A stretch of 28,119 nucleotides of DNA from a virus. Shown one piece after another: positions 12,010 to 21,725 of the stretch; within the stretch, counting starts at the first letter, position 1, and every line of letters starts with the position of its first letter. The notes under the pieces are model-generated. The model worked only from the letters and a program-made list of their open reading frames with translations. It had not been told where the DNA came from and did no database searches. The position numbers were made by a program, and so were the translations under genes. The stretch lies in the IMG/VR virus record IMGVR_UViG_3300032326_000132, positions 1 to 28,119 of that record; one strand, written 5' to 3'.

Positions 12010-13482
12010 TTAAGTAAAAACTTTAACACCATAATGAGCTTCAAAGTTTCTTGCGTCCGTTATGTTGTTAACCATGGGTTGCCCCTTGATATTAAGGCTG
12101 GTGTTCAATAGCATGGGGCATCCTGTCATTTGATACCATGTCTCTAGTAGTCTTCTAATCCTACTTCCATCATTTGGCACAGTTTGTACACGACTAGTGC
12201 CATCACGATGAATGATAGCAGGAAATAACTCAGGATGCCTACAACGACTGATGAACTGCATATACCTATGGTCACTGCTAGCGCCACAGAGATCAAAGTA
12301 CATATCAGCCAACTCTTCCAAAATAATTGGGGCAAACGGTCTGAACTGTTGTCGTTTCTTGATTTCATTTACTCGATCCTTTACGTCTGGACCACGAGGA
12401 TCCGCTAACAAACTACGATTGCCCAATGCCCGTGGACCAAACTCTGCAGGGCCTTGAGCCACTCCGCAAATTTTATTGTTTAAAATATAATCGGCAATTT
12501 CTTTAATACCTGTAGTGGGCTCAATATTGTAGCCAATGAATGGCGTGAAGTGTTTGGGTTCTATGCGCCATTCTGGTTTATGTGCCAGTACTGCGCCAAT
12601 GGCACTGCCCGCATCACCTGGGTTAGGCATAATCCATACATGGTCGAAGTAGTCGTATGCAATGGGATTTGCCAAACAGTTTAACGCACATCCACCCATT
12701 AATACTAGATTGTCGCTGTTAACATATGTCTTTGTTTCTTTAAGAATTTTATCAAATTGTAATTCGTAAACCTGCTGAGTGGCAGCGGCAATATCAAAGG
12801 TGTCATTGACGATTAATTCTGGAGCCCAATCTTTACAGCCGCGATGTAGATTTTGTTTAAAGGACACAATCTTATTACTGTCTTTAAAGAAGTCGTTGAG
12901 CATACGCTTGCTCAACTGATCTGGATTGCCGTATGCTGCCATACCCATTAGAATATATTCTTCTTCGTTGGGTTTTAAATGACAACGCTGTGTCATGGCA
13001 CTGTACCACAGGCCCATGCTATGAGGATATCCTTGACTATATACTTTCTTTAAAGACTTACCCTTACCTTGCCATATAGTTAGTGTTTCAAACTCTCCAA
13101 TGGCATCAATCACTACAACACATGCTTCATCAAAACCGCTGGTATGAAAACCTGCTGCCGCATGACTCTTATGATGCGATGTATACTTAATCGGAGCAGT
13201 GATACCATATCCAGCAAGATACTGTTTGATATTGTTATTGTTCCATTTCCATCCTTGGCCAGCATATAATTGGCGCACCGTCTTTAGATATGGATTTTCG
13301 TACCAATAGATACAACTAGGTTCGCCCCACGACTTGGCATAATCCACAAGTTCTTTACATAAGTCCTTGTCATTCTTGATACCGCTGAATCGTTCGCTGT
13401 GACTGGCAAACACCAGTTTCTCATCACAAAACACAGCCAAGGCCGCATCGTGACTATTTGCTGAAATGCCCCAGTTAATCAT
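12010..13482 (-). CDS. NodU/CmcH-family carbamoyltransferase
   Basis: 490 residues. The N-terminal Kae1-like ATPase domain shows NSHDAAL (9-15), HHKSH (103-107) for metal binding, VVVIDAIGE (122-130) and GGCALN (263-268). The C-terminal domain carries the family signature GPAEFGPRALGNRS (344-357), HRDGTSRVQTV (425-435) and MLLNTSLNIKGQP (457-469). Such enzymes make carbamoyl-AMP from carbamoyl phosphate and ATP and carbamoylate a hydroxyl group. Phage members may act in nucleotide or DNA hypermodification, but the substrate here is not identified. It is translationally coupled (ATGA) to the 33-aa gene upstream. All family motifs look intact. Confidence 0.9.
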   Translation of the reverse strand: MINWGISANSHDAALAVFCDEKLVFASHSERFSGIKNDKDLCKELVDYAKSWGEPSCIYWYENPYLKTVRQLYAGQGWKWNNNNIKQYLAGYGITAPIKYTSHHKSHAAAGFHTSGFDEACVVVIDAIGEFETLTIWQGKGKSLKKVYSQGYPHSMGLWYSAMTQRCHLKPNEEEYILMGMAAYGNPDQLSKRMLNDFFKDSNKIVSFKQNLHRGCKDWAPELIVNDTFDIAAATQQVYELQFDKILKETKTYVNSDNLVLMGGCALNCLANPIAYDYFDHVWIMPNPGDAGSAIGAVLAHKPEWRIEPKHFTPFIGYNIEPTTGIKEIADYILNNKICGVAQGPAEFGPRALGNRSLLADPRGPDVKDRVNEIKKRQQFRPFAPIILEELADMYFDLCGASSDHRYMQFISRCRHPELFPAIIHRDGTSRVQTVPNDGSRIRRLLETWYQMTGCPMLLNTSLNIKGQPMVNNITDARNFEAHYGVKVFT

Positions 13483-13580
13483 TTGTAAATATGTGGATCT
13501 CGTTTTCTCATTTCTTTACGTCTCTTACGTAACTCGAAATAATCTGTTATACTGTAATATATGTTTTTTAACCAAGCCAT
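13479..13580 (-). CDS. Small basic protein, 33 aa
   Basis: A 34-codon frame fits exactly between primase and carbamoyltransferase. Its ATG (13580) lies inside the end of the primase gene with AAGGA 8 nt before it, and its TGA overlaps the next ATG (ATGA). The product opens MAWLKNIYYSITDYFELRKR and ends RKRDPHIYK, a short aromatic helix followed by a dense basic stretch. I recall similar micro-proteins in marine T4-like phages. Nucleic-acid or membrane-surface binding is possible but unproven. Confidence 0.7.
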   Translation of the reverse strand: MAWLKNIYYSITDYFELRKRRKEMRKRDPHIYK

Positions 13581-14545
13581 TTTTTCATCCTTAATTGTAT
13601 TTTTAAAGGCATAGATTCTTTACTGCTCGCTATGCTCCATAATGTATATAGCTTTCCGCCTAACCGCACAGCATCGTTCACATCTTTGACACCTTGGGGC
13701 CAGTCGGGCATACTAACACTCCAACCTAATTCAATTGCCTGCTCTACTAATTTTAAACCTGACGGATCTCTATCCGGAACAACCACTATCTCTCGCTGTA
13801 GTTGATTCAATAATGCTATTTGTTGCGGACCCACTTCGTTACTCATAACAGCACATCCGTCTACACAAATAGCATCAAGTGGTCCTTCTGTCACTATGGT
13901 AAACTTGCGAGAATAGTCTTGGTTGTCTAAATTAAACACATAGCCGGGCTGTTGTTCACTGATGTATTTGACTTTACCATCTCTAGTTAATCTAGCAGTA
14001 TAGCCCACTAGTCTGCCTTGATAGTAAAATGGCACAATCAATCTGTTTTGAAAACCATCTTCGTCAGTCCAGTGCCACGGATAATCGTCTACAGTAAAAC
14101 CGCGTGAATACATATATTCTAACACGGGCCTTAGTTCTTCCGGATTACTATCTAGCCAGGACAGTATGGGCTTCGAGCCCAATGGCATAGCTTTGTCTAT
14201 AAAGGTAGGAATGACGTTAACAGTTCCTTTGTACGCAGGATCTTCGTTTAGTCTTAACGCTTCCAAACTACACTTTGTAATCAAATCATCTGCTACATTG
14301 AGCCACTGTAACAGTCTTTTAAATTTAACTGAAATCTTTCTACCAGGTTGCCAACTTGCTTTAAAGCCGCAATTGAAGCAATGATAACTTACACCTTCGG
14401 TTATCATTATGCCGCCACGACCTCTAGTATCAAAACTAGATCCATTGTGATGGCAACAGATAGCATTAAAGCTAATCCACCCGCTTGGGGTTGCTTTTCT
14501 CTTAGGAGGTAGGTAAGATGTTACTGTGTCTATGATAAGGCTCAT
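13568..14545 (-). CDS. DNA primase, T4 gp61-like
   Basis: 325 residues. The N-terminal zinc-binding domain has CCHH (30-33) and CFNC (56-59). The TOPRIM core has TEGPLD (219-224) with Glu220 and Asp224, and PDRDPSG (257-263) with Asp258 and Asp260. KDVNDAV (287-293) is typical of DnaG-type primases. It would make RNA primers for the lagging strand with the gp41-like helicase encoded two genes downstream. A sigma70 promoter (TTGACA, 17 bp, TAAAAT) ends 6 nt before the ATG, so the primary message would be leaderless. Confidence 0.93.
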   Translation of the reverse strand: MSLIIDTVTSYLPPKRKATPSGWISFNAICCHHNGSSFDTRGRGGIMITEGVSYHCFNCGFKASWQPGRKISVKFKRLLQWLNVADDLITKCSLEALRLNEDPAYKGTVNVIPTFIDKAMPLGSKPILSWLDSNPEELRPVLEYMYSRGFTVDDYPWHWTDEDGFQNRLIVPFYYQGRLVGYTARLTRDGKVKYISEQQPGYVFNLDNQDYSRKFTIVTEGPLDAICVDGCAVMSNEVGPQQIALLNQLQREIVVVPDRDPSGLKLVEQAIELGWSVSMPDWPQGVKDVNDAVRLGGKLYTLWSIASSKESMPLKIQLRMKKWLG

Positions 14546-15670: not shown

Positions 15671-15678
15671 TATTTATA
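15671..15678 (-). promoter_or_regulatory. T4-type late promoter motif (TATAAATA)
   Basis: A perfect TATAAATA on the minus strand, 21 nt before the ATG at 15649 and with a ribosome site (AAGGA) correctly placed between. Its edge touches the ATG of the divergent gene at 15678. Confidence 0.7.
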
Positions 15679-16058
15679 TGGTTAAACTTAGAGATAACAT
15701 AGAGAATCAACTACCCTTTATCAGCGTATTAAACTACGGTGAACTAGAATACGTGGGCATTATCATCAATCAAGATCAGTTTGTTACAAGCTTCTACGAC
15801 TTAGAAGCAATTAAAACACCCGACGAAAAAACTCTTTTACTAGAACTTGGAGAAGTATGGTGGTGGGAAAGCAATCGACAGATTCCGATTAGTATCTTTC
15901 TAAGAAGAGAAATAGAACCTTTCAAGTACAGTATCAAAACCTTTAATAGTAAAGATGTGAGAGTAGTACTCGGCCCGGTAGTTAATTTAATGAATCTAAC
16001 GCTCAAACGAATAAAACGCAAGAGTGTACAGCTAGTAAGAAAGCCGCCAAGCCGTTAA
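15678..16058 (+). CDS. Hypothetical protein, 126 aa, isolated on the plus strand
   Basis: The only plus-strand gene within the large minus-strand block. The product (MVKLRDNIENQLPFISVLNY at its start) has a strand-rich core (YVGIIINQDQFVTSFYDL, LGEVWWWESNRQIPISIFL) and a strongly basic C-terminal tail (KRIKRKSVQLVRK). The WWW run near residue 55-57 is notable. There is no ribosome site and only a poor promoter (TTGCAT, 18 bp, TACTAT, then 4 nt to ATG), so it may be leaderless. Its 3' end overlaps the DnaE-like gene by 4 nt. No family is named with confidence. Confidence 0.65.
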   Translation: MVKLRDNIENQLPFISVLNYGELEYVGIIINQDQFVTSFYDLEAIKTPDEKTLLLELGEVWWWESNRQIPISIFLRREIEPFKYSIKTFNSKDVRVVLGPVVNLMNLTLKRIKRKSVQLVRKPPSR

Positions 16059-16633
16059 CTATAATCGTAACTTAGCTGTTCACAAATTAAATTCATCTGT
16101 ACAACAATAGCCATCGCATAAGCAACTGCGTGGGCCTTCTTAAAGTAGTACTCACCATCCTCGGGCTTTGTCCAAATAGTCGTCATCACTGTCGTCCAAT
16201 CCATCCCAATCAAATTCCTCTTCGCGGGTCTTATCATAGCCAAAACGGCCGCTAGTTGGAGTATACTCGTGGGTTTCATCTGTCTCAAGATGCTGCCGTG
16301 TCCGTTGACGTGAAATAGTAAATTGCTGAAATCGTCCTGCTCTAAAAGGTCCCATAGTGGTTCAGTCTCCATAAGTTGGGCAAGATGTGCTTCATCTCTA
16401 ACACCCTTATAAATGTTAACGTTCAAAAAGTCTATTTTAAAGTAGCCTCGTTCTTCTGCCTCTTTATAATCTATGCCTGCTAAATTTGTAACGGGATTAC
16501 AAGGAATTGTCTGTAAGTATATACCAGTATTATGAGCAACTAATTTAGAATCGTCGCGACGGCTTGCCTTGATATGCTTGATAACATCGAGAGCTTGATT
16601 CCGATCTAAAAAATCAATGTCGATATCTGGCAT
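16055..16633 (-). CDS. Miniature DnaE-like (C-family polymerase palm) protein
   Basis: 192 residues. MPDIDIDF (1-8) matches the DnaE active-site segment PDFDVDF. AHNTGIYLQTIP (33-44) corresponds to KHAGGVVIAP. FKIDFLNV (65-72) corresponds to KFDFLGL with the third catalytic Asp (Asp68). RQMKPTSILQLAAVLAMIRP (117-136) resembles the LKP...ALYRPG segment, and FKKAHAVAYAM (164-174) resembles FNKSHAAAYAL. DnaE proteins exceed 1,000 residues and carry PHP, tau-binding and OB domains that are absent here. The activity is unknown: a minimal polymerase, a relic or a regulator. The ATG overlaps the upstream stop (TAATG). Confidence 0.85.
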   Translation of the reverse strand: MPDIDIDFLDRNQALDVIKHIKASRRDDSKLVAHNTGIYLQTIPCNPVTNLAGIDYKEAEERGYFKIDFLNVNIYKGVRDEAHLAQLMETEPLWDLLEQDDFSNLLFHVNGHGSILRQMKPTSILQLAAVLAMIRPAKRNLIGMDWTTVMTTIWTKPEDGEYYFKKAHAVAYAMAIVVQMNLICEQLSYDYS

Positions 16634-16803
16634 TAGTGCTTTACCTCTGATTCAAATAACATTAGTGGAAGTGCGTCTACTAGATAGCTGGCATATTGGT
16701 CAGCCGATTCTACATCATCAAACCCTGTCAATTTAACGTATACTGCAGCATCCTCTTCGCTAACAATAACTTCCAAATCTAATTTTGTTGCGTTTGGATT
16801 CAT
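16633..16803 (-). CDS. Hypothetical acidic protein, 56 aa
   Basis: A 57-codon frame bridges the zinc-finger gene and the DnaE-like gene. Its ATG at 16803 overlaps the upstream TGA (ATGA), and its TAA overlaps the next ATG. The product opens MNPNATKLDLEVIVSEEDAA and continues VYVKLTGFDDVESADQYASY, giving strand, helix and strand-like spacing. It is acidic. Exact coupling on both sides is strong evidence for a gene. It may act with the DnaE-like protein, which is only inferred from adjacency. Confidence 0.75.
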   Translation of the reverse strand: MNPNATKLDLEVIVSEEDAAVYVKLTGFDDVESADQYASYLVDALPLMLFESEVKH

Positions 16804-17498
16804 AAGTTAGCCTCCTTGACTACTTCTTTAACAAGCTCAAGATCCGTTCGTTGTTTTTTAAATTTTTTAACCCATACATTAGGGTCTATAACATTACTTA
16901 TCGAAGCTAACTGTTCATCACTCAGTGATGCTAGCAATTCTTTACCAGTAGTACAATTCAGTATCAACCACGGACTAACTTTACCATCTCTAATATCATA
17001 AGTTGCTCTGTTTACACTAACATACTTAAAATAATGACTCCATACACTGTTATTATCGTTTGCCCACGATTGCATATGGGTTACACTTCTGTTGAGTGCT
17101 GTTTCCACTTGTTCTGTATGAATCAATTCCAACACATATTTTTCATAAAGCGCATCTCTACACCAGTGATCTAGCTTGGCTCCACTACGTACTACCCAGT
17201 CGATATAATGATCCGGGTACAACGGATTTACATTACTGACATAGCTGCCAAATTTTACAAACGCATTGTAATAAGGACTCTTGGCAAATTCGCTGTGTGT
17301 TTTTATAGTTTTAGCATTCTGTGTTAGTTGATAAAATCTCACATATGTTTGATAGCCTATGACAACATGTTTTTCATCTTTGGCTAAATGTCTGCGTTTT
17401 TGTTCGCACATATGAACAGCCAGTGTTTTTTCCTGGGTGTAGCCGTGCCCACAAAATTGACAGATATAAGGTTTATTGTTCACACCAAAATTTAACAT
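16800..17498 (-). CDS. Zinc-finger protein, conserved in T4-like marine phages
   Basis: 232 residues. The N-terminal YICQFCGHGYTQEKTLAVHM (residues 11-30) is a C2H2-like finger with Cys13, Cys16 and His29 plus Cys31 or His37. The rest is helical and rich in Tyr, Trp and Lys (HYIDWVVRSGAKLDHWCRDA near 114-133). I recall close relatives as conserved proteins of cyanophage-type viruses without an established role. DNA binding or loading within replication would fit the context. I chose ATG 17498, which overlaps the upstream stop, over a TTG three nt earlier. Confidence 0.75.
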   Translation of the reverse strand: MLNFGVNNKPYICQFCGHGYTQEKTLAVHMCEQKRRHLAKDEKHVVIGYQTYVRFYQLTQNAKTIKTHSEFAKSPYYNAFVKFGSYVSNVNPLYPDHYIDWVVRSGAKLDHWCRDALYEKYVLELIHTEQVETALNRSVTHMQSWANDNNSVWSHYFKYVSVNRATYDIRDGKVSPWLILNCTTGKELLASLSDEQLASISNVIDPNVWVKKFKKQRTDLELVKEVVKEANL

Positions 17499-17968
17499 CA
17501 AAATAATTTAGCAATTTCTTCTTTACTATAACCTAAATCTTCTGCCATAGATTTTAGTTCCGATAACTCTGATAATTTTGCCAATAATTCAATTTCATCA
17601 TCTTTCATATCAGGGTACACTAAATTTAGAAATTTAATGCGTTTGTTATCTTTTTTCTTTTTAAATCCTATCCATTCGTGATAGAATATCTTTTTACTTT
17701 CATGCCCGCACATACTAAGCAACTGCCACATTAACTTAGGATGACTTTGTAAGTCGTACCAATATTTGTTAAAGTACTCATTGACAGTAAGAACAAAGTG
17801 TTCTTGTGTGTCTCTAGGTTGACCTTTGACATTGCTAATATATCGATTGAGAATAAAGAACTCTTGCTTAAGACTCTTTCTTTGAAGGTCGTCCATTTCG
17901 TCCCACATCGAGCGGGCACCCATGTCGACAGCAGCCATTTTTTCTTTTAGTTCAATCTTTTCGCTCAT
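17498..17968 (-). CDS. Helical conserved protein, possibly gp62-like clamp-loader subunit
   Basis: 156 residues from ATG 17968 (an earlier TTG at 17977 is possible). Almost all helical. FFILNRYIS (37-45) resembles the FIVNR-x-x-S segment of T4 gp62. A long aromatic stretch (VNEYFNKYWYDLQSHPKLMW) and a basic FKKKKDNKR (102-110) follow, then an acidic end. T4 gp62 is the small subunit of the sliding-clamp loader. The resemblance is weak and no gp44 or gp45 is in the window, so the name is only a hypothesis. It overlaps its neighbours on both sides. Confidence 0.65.
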   Translation of the reverse strand: MSEKIELKEKMAAVDMGARSMWDEMDDLQRKSLKQEFFILNRYISNVKGQPRDTQEHFVLTVNEYFNKYWYDLQSHPKLMWQLLSMCGHESKKIFYHEWIGFKKKKDNKRIKFLNLVYPDMKDDEIELLAKLSELSELKSMAEDLGYSKEEIAKLF

Positions 17969-18281
17969 CTTCTTCAATCTCAGTTGGTGGCAAAATACCG
18001 TTGCTATGTCGATCTGTAGATTTTTCTACATCTTGAAATAGTCTTTTTTCCTGTGCTGTTAGTTTATCCTTGTGTGTCTTACGGGGATTGCCACACATAA
18101 AACATTCTGGATTTCCGCAGTCCATTGCGTGATGCTTGGCCAAACGATGCGGCTCTTTTAGCACTTTGTTTTCATCAGCAAATGAATTATGCTGTTTAGC
18201 AATTTTAACTTGCTTCTTGATGGCATTTTCATCTTTGAGTAAACGCTTACTATGCTTGAACTTGTCTTCTTCTTTGCTCAT
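17952..18281 (-). CDS. Hypothetical protein with CGNPxCxxCGNPRK motif, 109 aa
   Basis: The basic N-terminal helix (KHSKRLLKDENAIKKQVKIA) is followed by HRLAKHHAMDCGNPECFMCG and NPRKTH (residues 45-70). Cys55, Cys60 and Cys63 with nearby His50, His51 or His70 could form a small zinc site. The C-terminus is acidic. I recall this Cys motif in many phage hypothetical proteins without a known role. The ATG overlaps the upstream stop (ATGA), and the 3' end overlaps the next gene. Confidence 0.75.
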   Translation of the reverse strand: MSKEEDKFKHSKRLLKDENAIKKQVKIAKQHNSFADENKVLKEPHRLAKHHAMDCGNPECFMCGNPRKTHKDKLTAQEKRLFQDVEKSTDRHSNGILPPTEIEEDERKD

Positions 18282-19096: not shown

Positions 19097-20563
19097 TTAA
19101 TTCCAATCAATCTTGTCTAGTGTGAATGGATACTTGGCTTCTTTGTAGAATTTCTTCCGTGCCGTAAGATGCCGCTTTGCGTATTTAGACGTCGAGGTAA
19201 TGTCCCAGATTTGGACAAAGTCCTTGTCGTCTGCTTTTCTAATGCCTCGCCCAATACTTTGTATAACGCGGACAAAGCTCTTTCCGGGCTCCAAAAGAAC
19301 CAGATTAAAAATACGGGGGATATTAATACCCACAGCGGCCACACCGTAAGTCGCCACAATAATCTTATTAGTACTAGTTTTAACATCGTCGTATTCTTCT
19401 TTCCTGTCTTTTGTTTTAACTTCTCCGGAAATAAACACACTATCTTCCAGCTCGTTAACAAGAAACTTCCCGGTATCGATTCTATTAACAAGTACCAACG
19501 TGTTACCACTGTCGGCTATTCCTTTAATCATTTTGCTGATATAAACCATGCGGTCGTCATCAGTAACTAGATATTTTAATTCTTCTGCGTAAGTCTTAAA
19601 CTCAGGCAAATCTATCAACTGAGCAATGTTAACATGACAATTACTCAGTACACCTTTTTCCTGTAATTCATGTGCCTTAATTCCGCCGATTACAGGACCG
19701 ATGCTGGCAAAAATACTTTCATATTCGAATGCTTCTTTAGGCACAGTGCCTGTTAATCCCCAGCGTACTGGCGCATTAGCAAGATTTTGTGTAAGCAAAT
19801 TCTTCAGTACTTCGGCTTTTGCCATGTGTACTTCATCAACAATAACACATGCTACACCTTCTAAAAATTCAGCAAGTGATACAATGTCATGTTCTAAGTT
19901 TTTACTTTTCTTATCTAGTATGTTCAGACTTTGCCATGTACAGATAGTGTGAGTTTTATTTAAATCTTTACGATCTCCGTAGTAAACACCTACATCAAGA
20001 TCCACGTTGATAAAATCTTCTTCTGTTTGTTCAACAAGACTTTTATTAGGAACAATAGTAATTGTTCTACCTAACGGTTCGCATAATTGTGCCAACGTAG
20101 CTGTGGTAATTGTTTTACCGGCGCCTGTTGCCACCTCTTGTAAACTCTGCGGATTCTCGAGAAAATTATTAATAGTGTCAACTTGATAATCACGCAACAT
20201 GATAGGCAGACCTTCTTGCTGGTGACCCTTAGGCCAAGTTTTTCCTTGGTCGGCCCAGTACGATTCTGTAACTTTAGCAAAGGCTAAATTTGTAGGCTGT
20301 CTTAAATCTTCAATAGAAGAAACGTCAATTCCTGAGCTATCTAGCAAACTTAATATCTTGGGTAGTTGATTGATATAACCGTTGCCGCCGAGACCAAACA
20401 ATGTTACTTGCCCGTCCCATCTGCCTAGCTTATAAGCTGGATGATACTTGGCATAGGGAATATCGTACTTGAATGCGTTAGATAGTTTTCTACGCATTTC
20501 CACACTGAGACCCTCTATTTTTATGTTAACTTCGTCCTTGATTATTAGCTTACATGATGACAT
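19097..20563 (-). CDS. uvsW: UvsW-type DNA/RNA helicase
   Basis: 488 residues from ATG 20563, which has AAGGA 7 nt upstream. Longer in-frame starts (20569, 20596) are less well placed. The N-terminal substrate-binding region (about 1-115) precedes an SF2 core with MLRDYQ (122-127), ATGAGKT (145-151), DEVH (243-246), a motif III region GLTGT, and motifs V/VI (VGINIP and QSIGRGIRK) in the second RecA domain. T4 UvsW (503 aa) unwinds R-loops and branched DNA and turns off origin-dependent replication late in infection. It starts inside the end of the 391-aa gene, so coupling is likely. Confidence 0.93.
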   Translation of the reverse strand: MSSCKLIIKDEVNIKIEGLSVEMRRKLSNAFKYDIPYAKYHPAYKLGRWDGQVTLFGLGGNGYINQLPKILSLLDSSGIDVSSIEDLRQPTNLAFAKVTESYWADQGKTWPKGHQQEGLPIMLRDYQVDTINNFLENPQSLQEVATGAGKTITTATLAQLCEPLGRTITIVPNKSLVEQTEEDFINVDLDVGVYYGDRKDLNKTHTICTWQSLNILDKKSKNLEHDIVSLAEFLEGVACVIVDEVHMAKAEVLKNLLTQNLANAPVRWGLTGTVPKEAFEYESIFASIGPVIGGIKAHELQEKGVLSNCHVNIAQLIDLPEFKTYAEELKYLVTDDDRMVYISKMIKGIADSGNTLVLVNRIDTGKFLVNELEDSVFISGEVKTKDRKEEYDDVKTSTNKIIVATYGVAAVGINIPRIFNLVLLEPGKSFVRVIQSIGRGIRKADDKDFVQIWDITSTSKYAKRHLTARKKFYKEAKYPFTLDKIDWN

Positions 20564-21725
20564 CAACATTTCCTTGAAGAGGCTTTTTATCCCCATAATA
20601 TATAATTAGATCAACGTCAGTGCAGTAAACATAACTTTTACTATTTTTAAAACTCGTTGTAAACGAAATCACACTTTTAGGCTTCCATTTGTCTTTAATG
20701 AAGAATTTGGGCAATTTACTATTGGCAATGCCAGCAACTTGCGAATGCTCGGAAAGATTTTTATTGTATCCTAATTCAGAAATGGTTTTGTTGAACCCAG
20801 CTGGATCATTGCCTTGATTAAATCTAAAATAAATTCCAATATGGTCATCAACACCGTTTGCTTTTAGTGCGTCTGCGAGCAAATTTAGTGATTTTTTGTT
20901 CACAGTAGAGTCGTGTCCGTCAAAAATTACTAAAAGTGGCAGTCTTTTAAGTTTTATTAAACTGGCTATTACCTCTGTTAAGGTACAAGATGAGTTATCG
21001 ATAAAAATTTTAGTGGACGGTCGTTGTGCTATCAACGTGGTCAAGAATTTATTGGGTAATTTTTCGAAAAAATCGTACTGATACCGGATTTTTCGGTCAT
21101 TTAGTAAAAGATGATTTTCACTGGTATACGTGCCGATATCGTCTGTCAGTATTTTTTTCAAATTTTCATTTTTCGAGTCAAGTATCGAAAAATTTATTTC
21201 TGAGGATGACAACGTGCGATCAATGTCTTCGTAAAATTTCATGATTTTTTCATCAATTTCGAAATTTTCTCGAAGAAATTCACCTACCAGTACATGAATG
21301 TTTTTTTCAGTGAGTGATACGGAAAAATGTCTAGTGCCGTGAGTGGATAACGATCCTTGTAGTCGATTGTTAAGGCCTGTGAGCTTGTTACGAAGTCTCT
21401 TGTCGTAGGTAAACTCTATAACTAAGGTGTCTGCATCACCGGGATCTATGTAAATTTTGCGAATTTTTTGAATTACTCTAAAAGGTTCGGACCATGTATC
21501 AGAATTGATCACATTGTGAACGTCATCCACGATGCCATCTAGGTGTACTGCGTTTTCTTTGAAAATTTTGGTCAATAATTTTGACTGATTTTCAGTCAAA
21601 AAAGTATTTTGTAAAAGTTGTCGAGCTAAACTCAACAATATTCGCTTATCTTTCGAAGGAAATACCTTTTCGGTCAAAAAGGCATTTTTAAAAAGGTGTA
21701 TAAGTAAGGCATCAACAGTTATCAT
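20550..21725 (-). CDS. Unknown protein linked to uvsW, 391 aa
   Basis: 391 residues with no motif I can assign. The N-terminal third is helical and basic, the middle mixed, and the C-terminal third has alternating strands and helices (LPLLVIFDGHDS near 258-269, GIYFRFNQGND near 300-310, SYVYCTDVDLIIYYGDKK near the end). This could be a Rossmann-like or nuclease-type fold. It lies between the uvsX group and uvsW, has its own perfect sigma70 promoter with a leaderless start, and overlaps uvsW by 14 nt. A role in recombination or replication is inferred from position only. Confidence 0.75.
   Translation of the reverse strand: MITVDALLIHLFKNAFLTEKVFPSKDKRILLSLARQLLQNTFLTENQSKLLTKIFKENAVHLDGIVDDVHNVINSDTWSEPFRVIQKIRKIYIDPGDADTLVIEFTYDKRLRNKLTGLNNRLQGSLSTHGTRHFSVSLTEKNIHVLVGEFLRENFEIDEKIMKFYEDIDRTLSSSEINFSILDSKNENLKKILTDDIGTYTSENHLLLNDRKIRYQYDFFEKLPNKFLTTLIAQRPSTKIFIDNSSCTLTEVIASLIKLKRLPLLVIFDGHDSTVNKKSLNLLADALKANGVDDHIGIYFRFNQGNDPAGFNKTISELGYNKNLSEHSQVAGIANSKLPKFFIKDKWKPKSVISFTTSFKNSKSYVYCTDVDLIIYYGDKKPLQGNVDVIM

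Follow-up and report, generated by a model that had tools for sequence, protein, structure and literature searches.

The window analysed here is the whole of a 28,119-nucleotide virus record (IMGVR_UViG_3300032326_000132), itself a genome fragment. An intact 192-aa ORF, from ATG to TAA, was read on its minus strand at positions 16055-16633, and the plus-strand frame across the same interval is full of stops. The initial annotation had placed a 192-residue DnaE-like protein here, which is borne out, with the strand settled as minus; the segments MPDIDIDF, AHNTGIYL, FKIDFLNV and FKKAHAVAYAM, on which that proposal was built, are all present and follow each other in DnaE order. We call this product the C-half and its partner, found in related genomes, the N-half. 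The features of the locus are given below, with neighbour counts taken over the homologous loci that have room on the tested side.

10041-10571, plus strand: 2OG-Fe(II) oxygenase-like protein
10545-11993, minus strand: DnaB-like replicative helicase (gp41-like)
12010-13482, minus strand: carbamoyltransferase with both Pfam domains, between the helicase and primase genes
13568-14545, minus strand: DNA primase (gp61-like), downstream of the C-half in 104/110 loci
15678-16058, plus strand: convergent ORF (PHROG 11637), directly after the C-half in 139/140 loci
16055-16633, minus strand: C-half of a split minimal Pol III alpha (PHROG 11778), comprising palm strands with D3, D5 and D68 and shortened fingers
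16118-16144, minus strand: FKKAHAVAY codons (residues 164-172), the fingers motif by sequence, with H168 and Y172 invariant
16424-16438, minus strand: KIDFL codons (residues 66-70), with the third catalytic Asp, D68; K66 and D68 invariant
16610-16633, minus strand: MPDIDIDF codons (residues 1-8), the first metal-ligand motif by sequence and invariance (D3 and D5; D7 also invariant)
16633-16803, minus strand: 56-aa ORF whose end overlaps the C-half start codon; assigned to no family, with just a weak PHROG match (E 0.15)
16800-17501, minus strand: C2H2-zinc-finger-like protein (PHROG 11058), upstream of the C-half in 142/146 loci
17498-17977, minus strand: gp62-like putative small clamp-loader subunit (PHROG 11758), upstream of the C-half in 141/146 loci
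20550-21725, minus strand: 391-aa ORF without a convincing family match, between UvsW- and UvsY-like genes; close to the corresponding place, an exonuclease subunit is encoded in RaK2 and PBECO4

The 192-aa ORF matched PHROG 11778, labeled "DNA polymerase," over its full length (E 4.5e-68) and the full-length DnaE family PHROG 405 with an E value of 6.8e-9; its likeness to DnaE is thus not due to chance. Single-sequence searches gave sub-threshold matches (Pfam, 0.1 and 0.22; NCBIfam, 0.01; PDB, 0.07), and a homologue, at locus L217, clears the cut-off of the Pfam fingers family PF17657 (26.7 bits versus 22). An AlphaFold2 model of the C-half, made from a 72-row alignment, reached a pLDDT of 91.9 and a pTM of 0.80, and the first 16 matches returned for it by Foldseek were C-family-type polymerases. 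In the structure comparison, the best 16 of the 33 matches listed were of DnaE/PolC type, three of them titled just "DNA polymerase" and counted by their PolC-like numbering, with Z scores of 6.0 to 9.6 and 184 to 190 of the 192 residues aligned; the first unrelated entry, in row 17, had a Z score of 3.1. The predicted fold is that of a C-family palm and fingers, and the relation to the DnaE palm proposed initially withstood this comparison. Taken together, the ORF is almost certainly the C-half of a C-family core.

Superposition on E. coli DnaE (2hnh) showed which parts of the cellular enzyme are represented. The model spans residues 400 to 784, and this region uses up the whole 192-aa chain, leaving no PHP domain and no C-terminal clamp- and tau-binding region; the loss of everything outside the palm and fingers, as initially described, was thus confirmed. 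Residues 413-424, 568-666 and 773-788 of M. tuberculosis DnaE1 (5lew) align to positions 1-13, 56-141 and 161-176 of the C-half profile, and the two Asp motifs are separated by about 43 residues in the C-half versus about 144 in M. tuberculosis DnaE1. From the gaps in this alignment, the C-half lacks about 100 residues where the thumb would be and about 87 in the fingers. The earlier figure of about 90 residues missing between the first two motifs was therefore about right, and the second deletion, which lies between the RP and FxKxHA motifs, had gone unmentioned. The portion of the palm that precedes PDIDIDF is also absent from the ORF, which begins with MPDIDIDF; unlike in full Pol III alpha (DnaE/PolC), the palm half with the GS motif is not in the same chain. 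We assume here the usual domain limits of DnaE, including the position of the thumb, the PHP domain and the layout of the clamp- and tau-binding region, and we take its catalytic Asp residues to be D401, D403 and D555 in E. coli and its RP and KSH fingers motifs to be those contacting the incoming nucleotide.

We then considered how well these residues are kept. D3, D5 and D68 were invariant in all of 120 distinct usable C-half sequences, which form 31 clusters at 70% identity and were taken from the window and 160 other loci through a motif filter that demanded D at positions 5 and 7 and that L219 alone failed; L219 and L265, both genes cut by a contig end, were left out. Retention of the three catalytic Asp residues, as first noted in this single sequence, thus extends to the phage homologues. 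D7, H34, K66, R135, P136, H168 and Y172 likewise never varied in the 120 sequences. The length of the C-half is near constant, with 188 to 193 aa in 71 of 78 distinct sequences, and comparison with four relatives (dN, 0.045 to 0.155; dS, 0.76 to 1.77) gave a dN/dS of about 0.06 to 0.11, indicating that the gene is under purifying selection.

The family is broad. By tblastn, 84 phage records matched the C-half, 63 of them covering at least 80% of the query; relatives at 33 to 54% identity included Rak2-like phages, PA5oct-like phages, Atu_ph07, Phosso, XacN1, SCTP-2 and others, and the weakest matches were to the full-length DnaE of Streptomyces and Moorella phages. At least 556 relatives were present in IMG/VR, and others came from scans started with distant members. 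When bacterial and archaeal genomes were scanned, 13 relatives were obtained, all on contigs titled MAG or uncultured bacterium that are probably phage contigs (the C-half sequences were read in all of them and the surroundings in L288), and a bacterial origin of the C-half was not retained on these grounds.

A search with PF07733 (Pol III NTPase domain) detected a short separate frame, above the family cut-off, in 13 of 14 long records carrying the C-half. These frames are open over 156 to 320 aa and match between profile positions 11 and 98. The N-half family is PHROG 11127, matched over its full length with E values of 9.4e-43 to 3e-87. Its proteins terminate in GxGRGSS...EFLR, at which point a full DnaE, here that of a Moorella phage, continues with NPERxx and PDIDVDF; G.GRGS was kept in 61/61 N-halves, after one stray full-length DnaE had been set aside from the count. 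The boundaries of the two halves are complementary. On the M. tuberculosis DnaE1 chain, the N-half profile stops at residue 406 and the C-half begins at M413; on E. coli DnaE, the N-half profile stops at 392 and the C-half match begins at about 400; in PF07733 positions, N-halves end at 89 to 98 and the C-half starts at 101. The AlphaFold model of an N-half (pLDDT, 91.9; pTM, 0.71) agrees with this arrangement: its residues 61-168 superpose on E. coli DnaE 271-393 (Z score of 9.8 with 2hnh), and the best 15 of the 17 rows listed were all of DnaE/PolC type (Z scores of 7.6 to 12.0; the next, 2.5). Residues 1-60 had no structural match by Foldseek.

The ORF had been read initially as a C-family mini-core in its own right. 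This was rejected, because a separate gene encodes the GRGS part of the active site; the ORF is the C-terminal half of a split Pol III alpha and not a complete mini-core. We also looked for a fused form, and none of the 174 C-half frames or the 106 N-half frames holds both, although three clusters carry both genes. The N-half was not found within the 28-kb record of this virus, which is a fragment, and the presence of the pair in this phage is therefore inferred from its relatives. The distance matrices of the two halves correlate with an r of 0.94 over 23 genomes, as any pair of genes passed on vertically should.

Of the 63 phage records with at least 80% cover, 62 were identified by name, and 61 of these have both halves. 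The exception, PP728206 (109 kb, marked UNVERIFIED), lacks the N-half. Further profile searches detected the N-half in 10 of 13 records, with misses in G005 (198 kb), G008 (219 kb) and PP728206, and the C-half in 11 of 17, with misses in six IMG/VR records of 91 to 212 kb; the IMG/VR records lacking one half (91 to 219 kb) may be fragments. In 19 records selected without G005, G008 and PP728206, the C-half, the N-half and gp44 were found in every case. The halves lie tens to hundreds of kilobases apart in most genomes. The circular, 141,644-bp genome of the Alishewanella phage Slickus01 (L195) carries both halves and a B-family polymerase (PolB), and the split pair is thus not limited to genomes above 200 kb.

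A PolB (PF00136) was found in 13/14 and 12/12 records of relatives with the split genes, in agreement with the coexistence of C- and B-family polymerases proposed at the outset. Both catalytic motifs of PolB were present at 11 of 12 loci, SCTP-2 being without a match to the DTD pattern. Inspection of the ORFs of the 28-kb fragment, without a profile, revealed no PolB. In Atu_ph07 (W02) and PA5oct (W03), at loci L096 and L098, the PolB matches fall in separate open frames in each genome, and the gene may therefore be split or interrupted in these two phages.

The genes around the two halves link them to the clamp loader. Downstream of the N-half, gp44 was found on the same strand at a distance of 0.7 to 2.5 kb in all 52 testable loci, after exclusion of those with less than 4.5 kb downstream; among the 19 selected records, it lay within 3.6 kb of the N-half in 18 and 8.5 kb away in Slickus01. 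In L216, L217 and L288, the N-half, a Cpn10-like gene, gp44, the gp62-like gene, the zinc finger gene and the C-half are collinear on one strand within 5 to 7 kb (the halves of L218 are identical to those of L217, and three lineages were counted). A Cpn10/gp31-like gene, such as that at 899-1243 on the minus strand of L111, was seen in all 52 N-half loci with downstream room. As to the gp62-like family, 3 of 24 members matched the clamp-loader family PHROG 225 (best E value, 2.5e-9), and in L217 the gene is immediately 3' of gp44; a PDB profile search with the family gave 11 listed chains, seemingly unrelated, with no clamp-loader chain among them. Weak profile similarity and the position after gp44 point to the PHROG 11758 gene as a putative gp62.

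A C-family core beside a B-family replicase had been called unexpected in the initial annotation, a view that no longer stands. In the sections available, Iyer et al. (2021; PMC7824862) describe "group 2.2" jumbo phages in which PolB is accompanied by a minimal Pol III alpha in two parts, consisting of an N-terminal NTP-binding protein and a C-terminal Mg- and template-binding protein encoded by distant genes. They suggested that the split parts reconstitute the enzyme, perhaps aiding one-strand synthesis or repair, and proposed the split minimal form as a model of the ancestral Pol III enzyme. The present system is alike in having two proteins beside PolB, and our ORF, which fits the C-terminal unit, is most likely a unit of that published kind. 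It differs from the "distantly located" genes of that description in that, in three lineages, the halves flank gp44-gp62 in one cluster, and from jumbo phages in that a 141-kb phage, below the jumbo limit, also has the pair. In the available text of the phage CBB paper (PMC5259590), a Pol III alpha-like protein, the other half, is described as appearing truncated, and in that of the Atu_ph07 paper, such a protein is mentioned merely as a predicted subunit. The kind is thus already known (PMC7824862), and what is added here is the clamp-loader linkage, the two-half clusters, the 141-kb phage and the invariance counts, which we did not find in the accessible parts of PMC7824862 or of the CBB and Atu_ph07 papers. 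A search of the open-licence literature, judged mostly from titles and abstract openings, yielded no experimental study of the split enzyme.

The labels of PHROG 11778 and PHROG 11127 say just "DNA polymerase" and are silent on two halves of one core. The C-half shares its palm/fingers fold and catalytic residues with cellular Pol III alpha (DnaE and PolC) but has no PHP, thumb, OB, clamp- or tau-binding parts, and the palm is divided over two genes. The full-length DnaE of the Moorella phage MTATph1 type, also C-family and a weak match to the C-half, differs in being a single 1,070-aa chain with N-terminal and thumb regions.

We propose a minimal polymerase core of the C family (Pol III alpha-like) built from two subunits, in which the C-half would be the part that deals with metal ions and template. 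A partner of about 160 to 200 aa, encoded elsewhere in the genome, would bring the other half of the palm, including the GRGS motif, which is expected to hold the triphosphate of the nucleotide being added. Together, the chains would form a single active site of palm and fingers that lacks PHP, thumb, OB and tau-binding parts. This second polymerase would probably use the clamp and clamp loader of the phage and act alongside the B-family replicase, with the filling of gaps, repair or a share in lagging-strand work as candidate roles. We infer assembly, catalysis, clamp use and role from the data above, and the whole, a two-subunit accessory C-family polymerase working beside the B-family replicase, is in our judgment somewhat more probable than its alternatives combined. 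The pair is likely to be catalytically active and would, with a reasonable but lesser probability, perform template-directed DNA synthesis; the latter is not assured, because the thumb and about 87 DNA-holding residues of the fingers are missing. Dependence on the clamp loader is possible, at somewhat less than even odds. Improbable, in our opinion, is a variant in which the clamp loader itself is the site of assembly, one half being made with gp44 and the other with gp62, so that the C-family core would become active only where a clamp is loaded; these phages would then have a mixed replisome, its B- and C-family polymerases sharing one loader.

The same deletions, together with the retention of all catalytic residues, would fit an assembled pair that is an active nucleotidyltransferase and does not copy a template, adding nucleotides to ends or modifying another macromolecule. 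We regard this as unlikely, though the least so of the alternatives, since the RP and FKKxHAxxY motifs, which presumably face the nucleotide, are nearly or fully invariant and the genes are grouped with those for clamp loader, primase and helicase, which indicates DNA synthesis. The tight linkage to clamp-loader genes could also suit a non-catalytic scaffold or decoy that occupies, for example, the clamp loader, the clamp or the host replisome, and a second polymerase is not strictly needed, since PolB has both catalytic motifs in 11/12 loci. However, a decoy would not need the metal ligands that are invariant in 120/120 sequences, even in relatives at 33 to 40% identity; moreover, nothing was found to support the decoy for host clamp or tau suggested initially, the clamp- and tau-binding regions of DnaE, in their assumed layout, being absent. 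Such a role is quite unlikely. Finally, decay of a captured host dnaE, to which the small size of the C-half and the apparent truncation printed for the other half in CBB (PMC5259590, in the text available) might point, was ruled out by the dN/dS of about 0.06 to 0.11 and the near-constant length in 71/78 sequences, and is made still more implausible by the at least 556 relatives and the joint retention of both halves.

If the two-subunit polymerase reading is true, hundreds of large-phage genomes would have retained, next to a B-family replicase that seems intact, a C-family polymerase of very small size with its active site divided between two chains. With two short proteins, the catalytic core of the bacterial replicase would be easy to test in isolation, and the clamp-loader linkage tells which components to add in such an assay. 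The proposal of Iyer et al. (PMC7824862, in the sections available) that this form resembles the ancestor of Pol III would thereby become testable.
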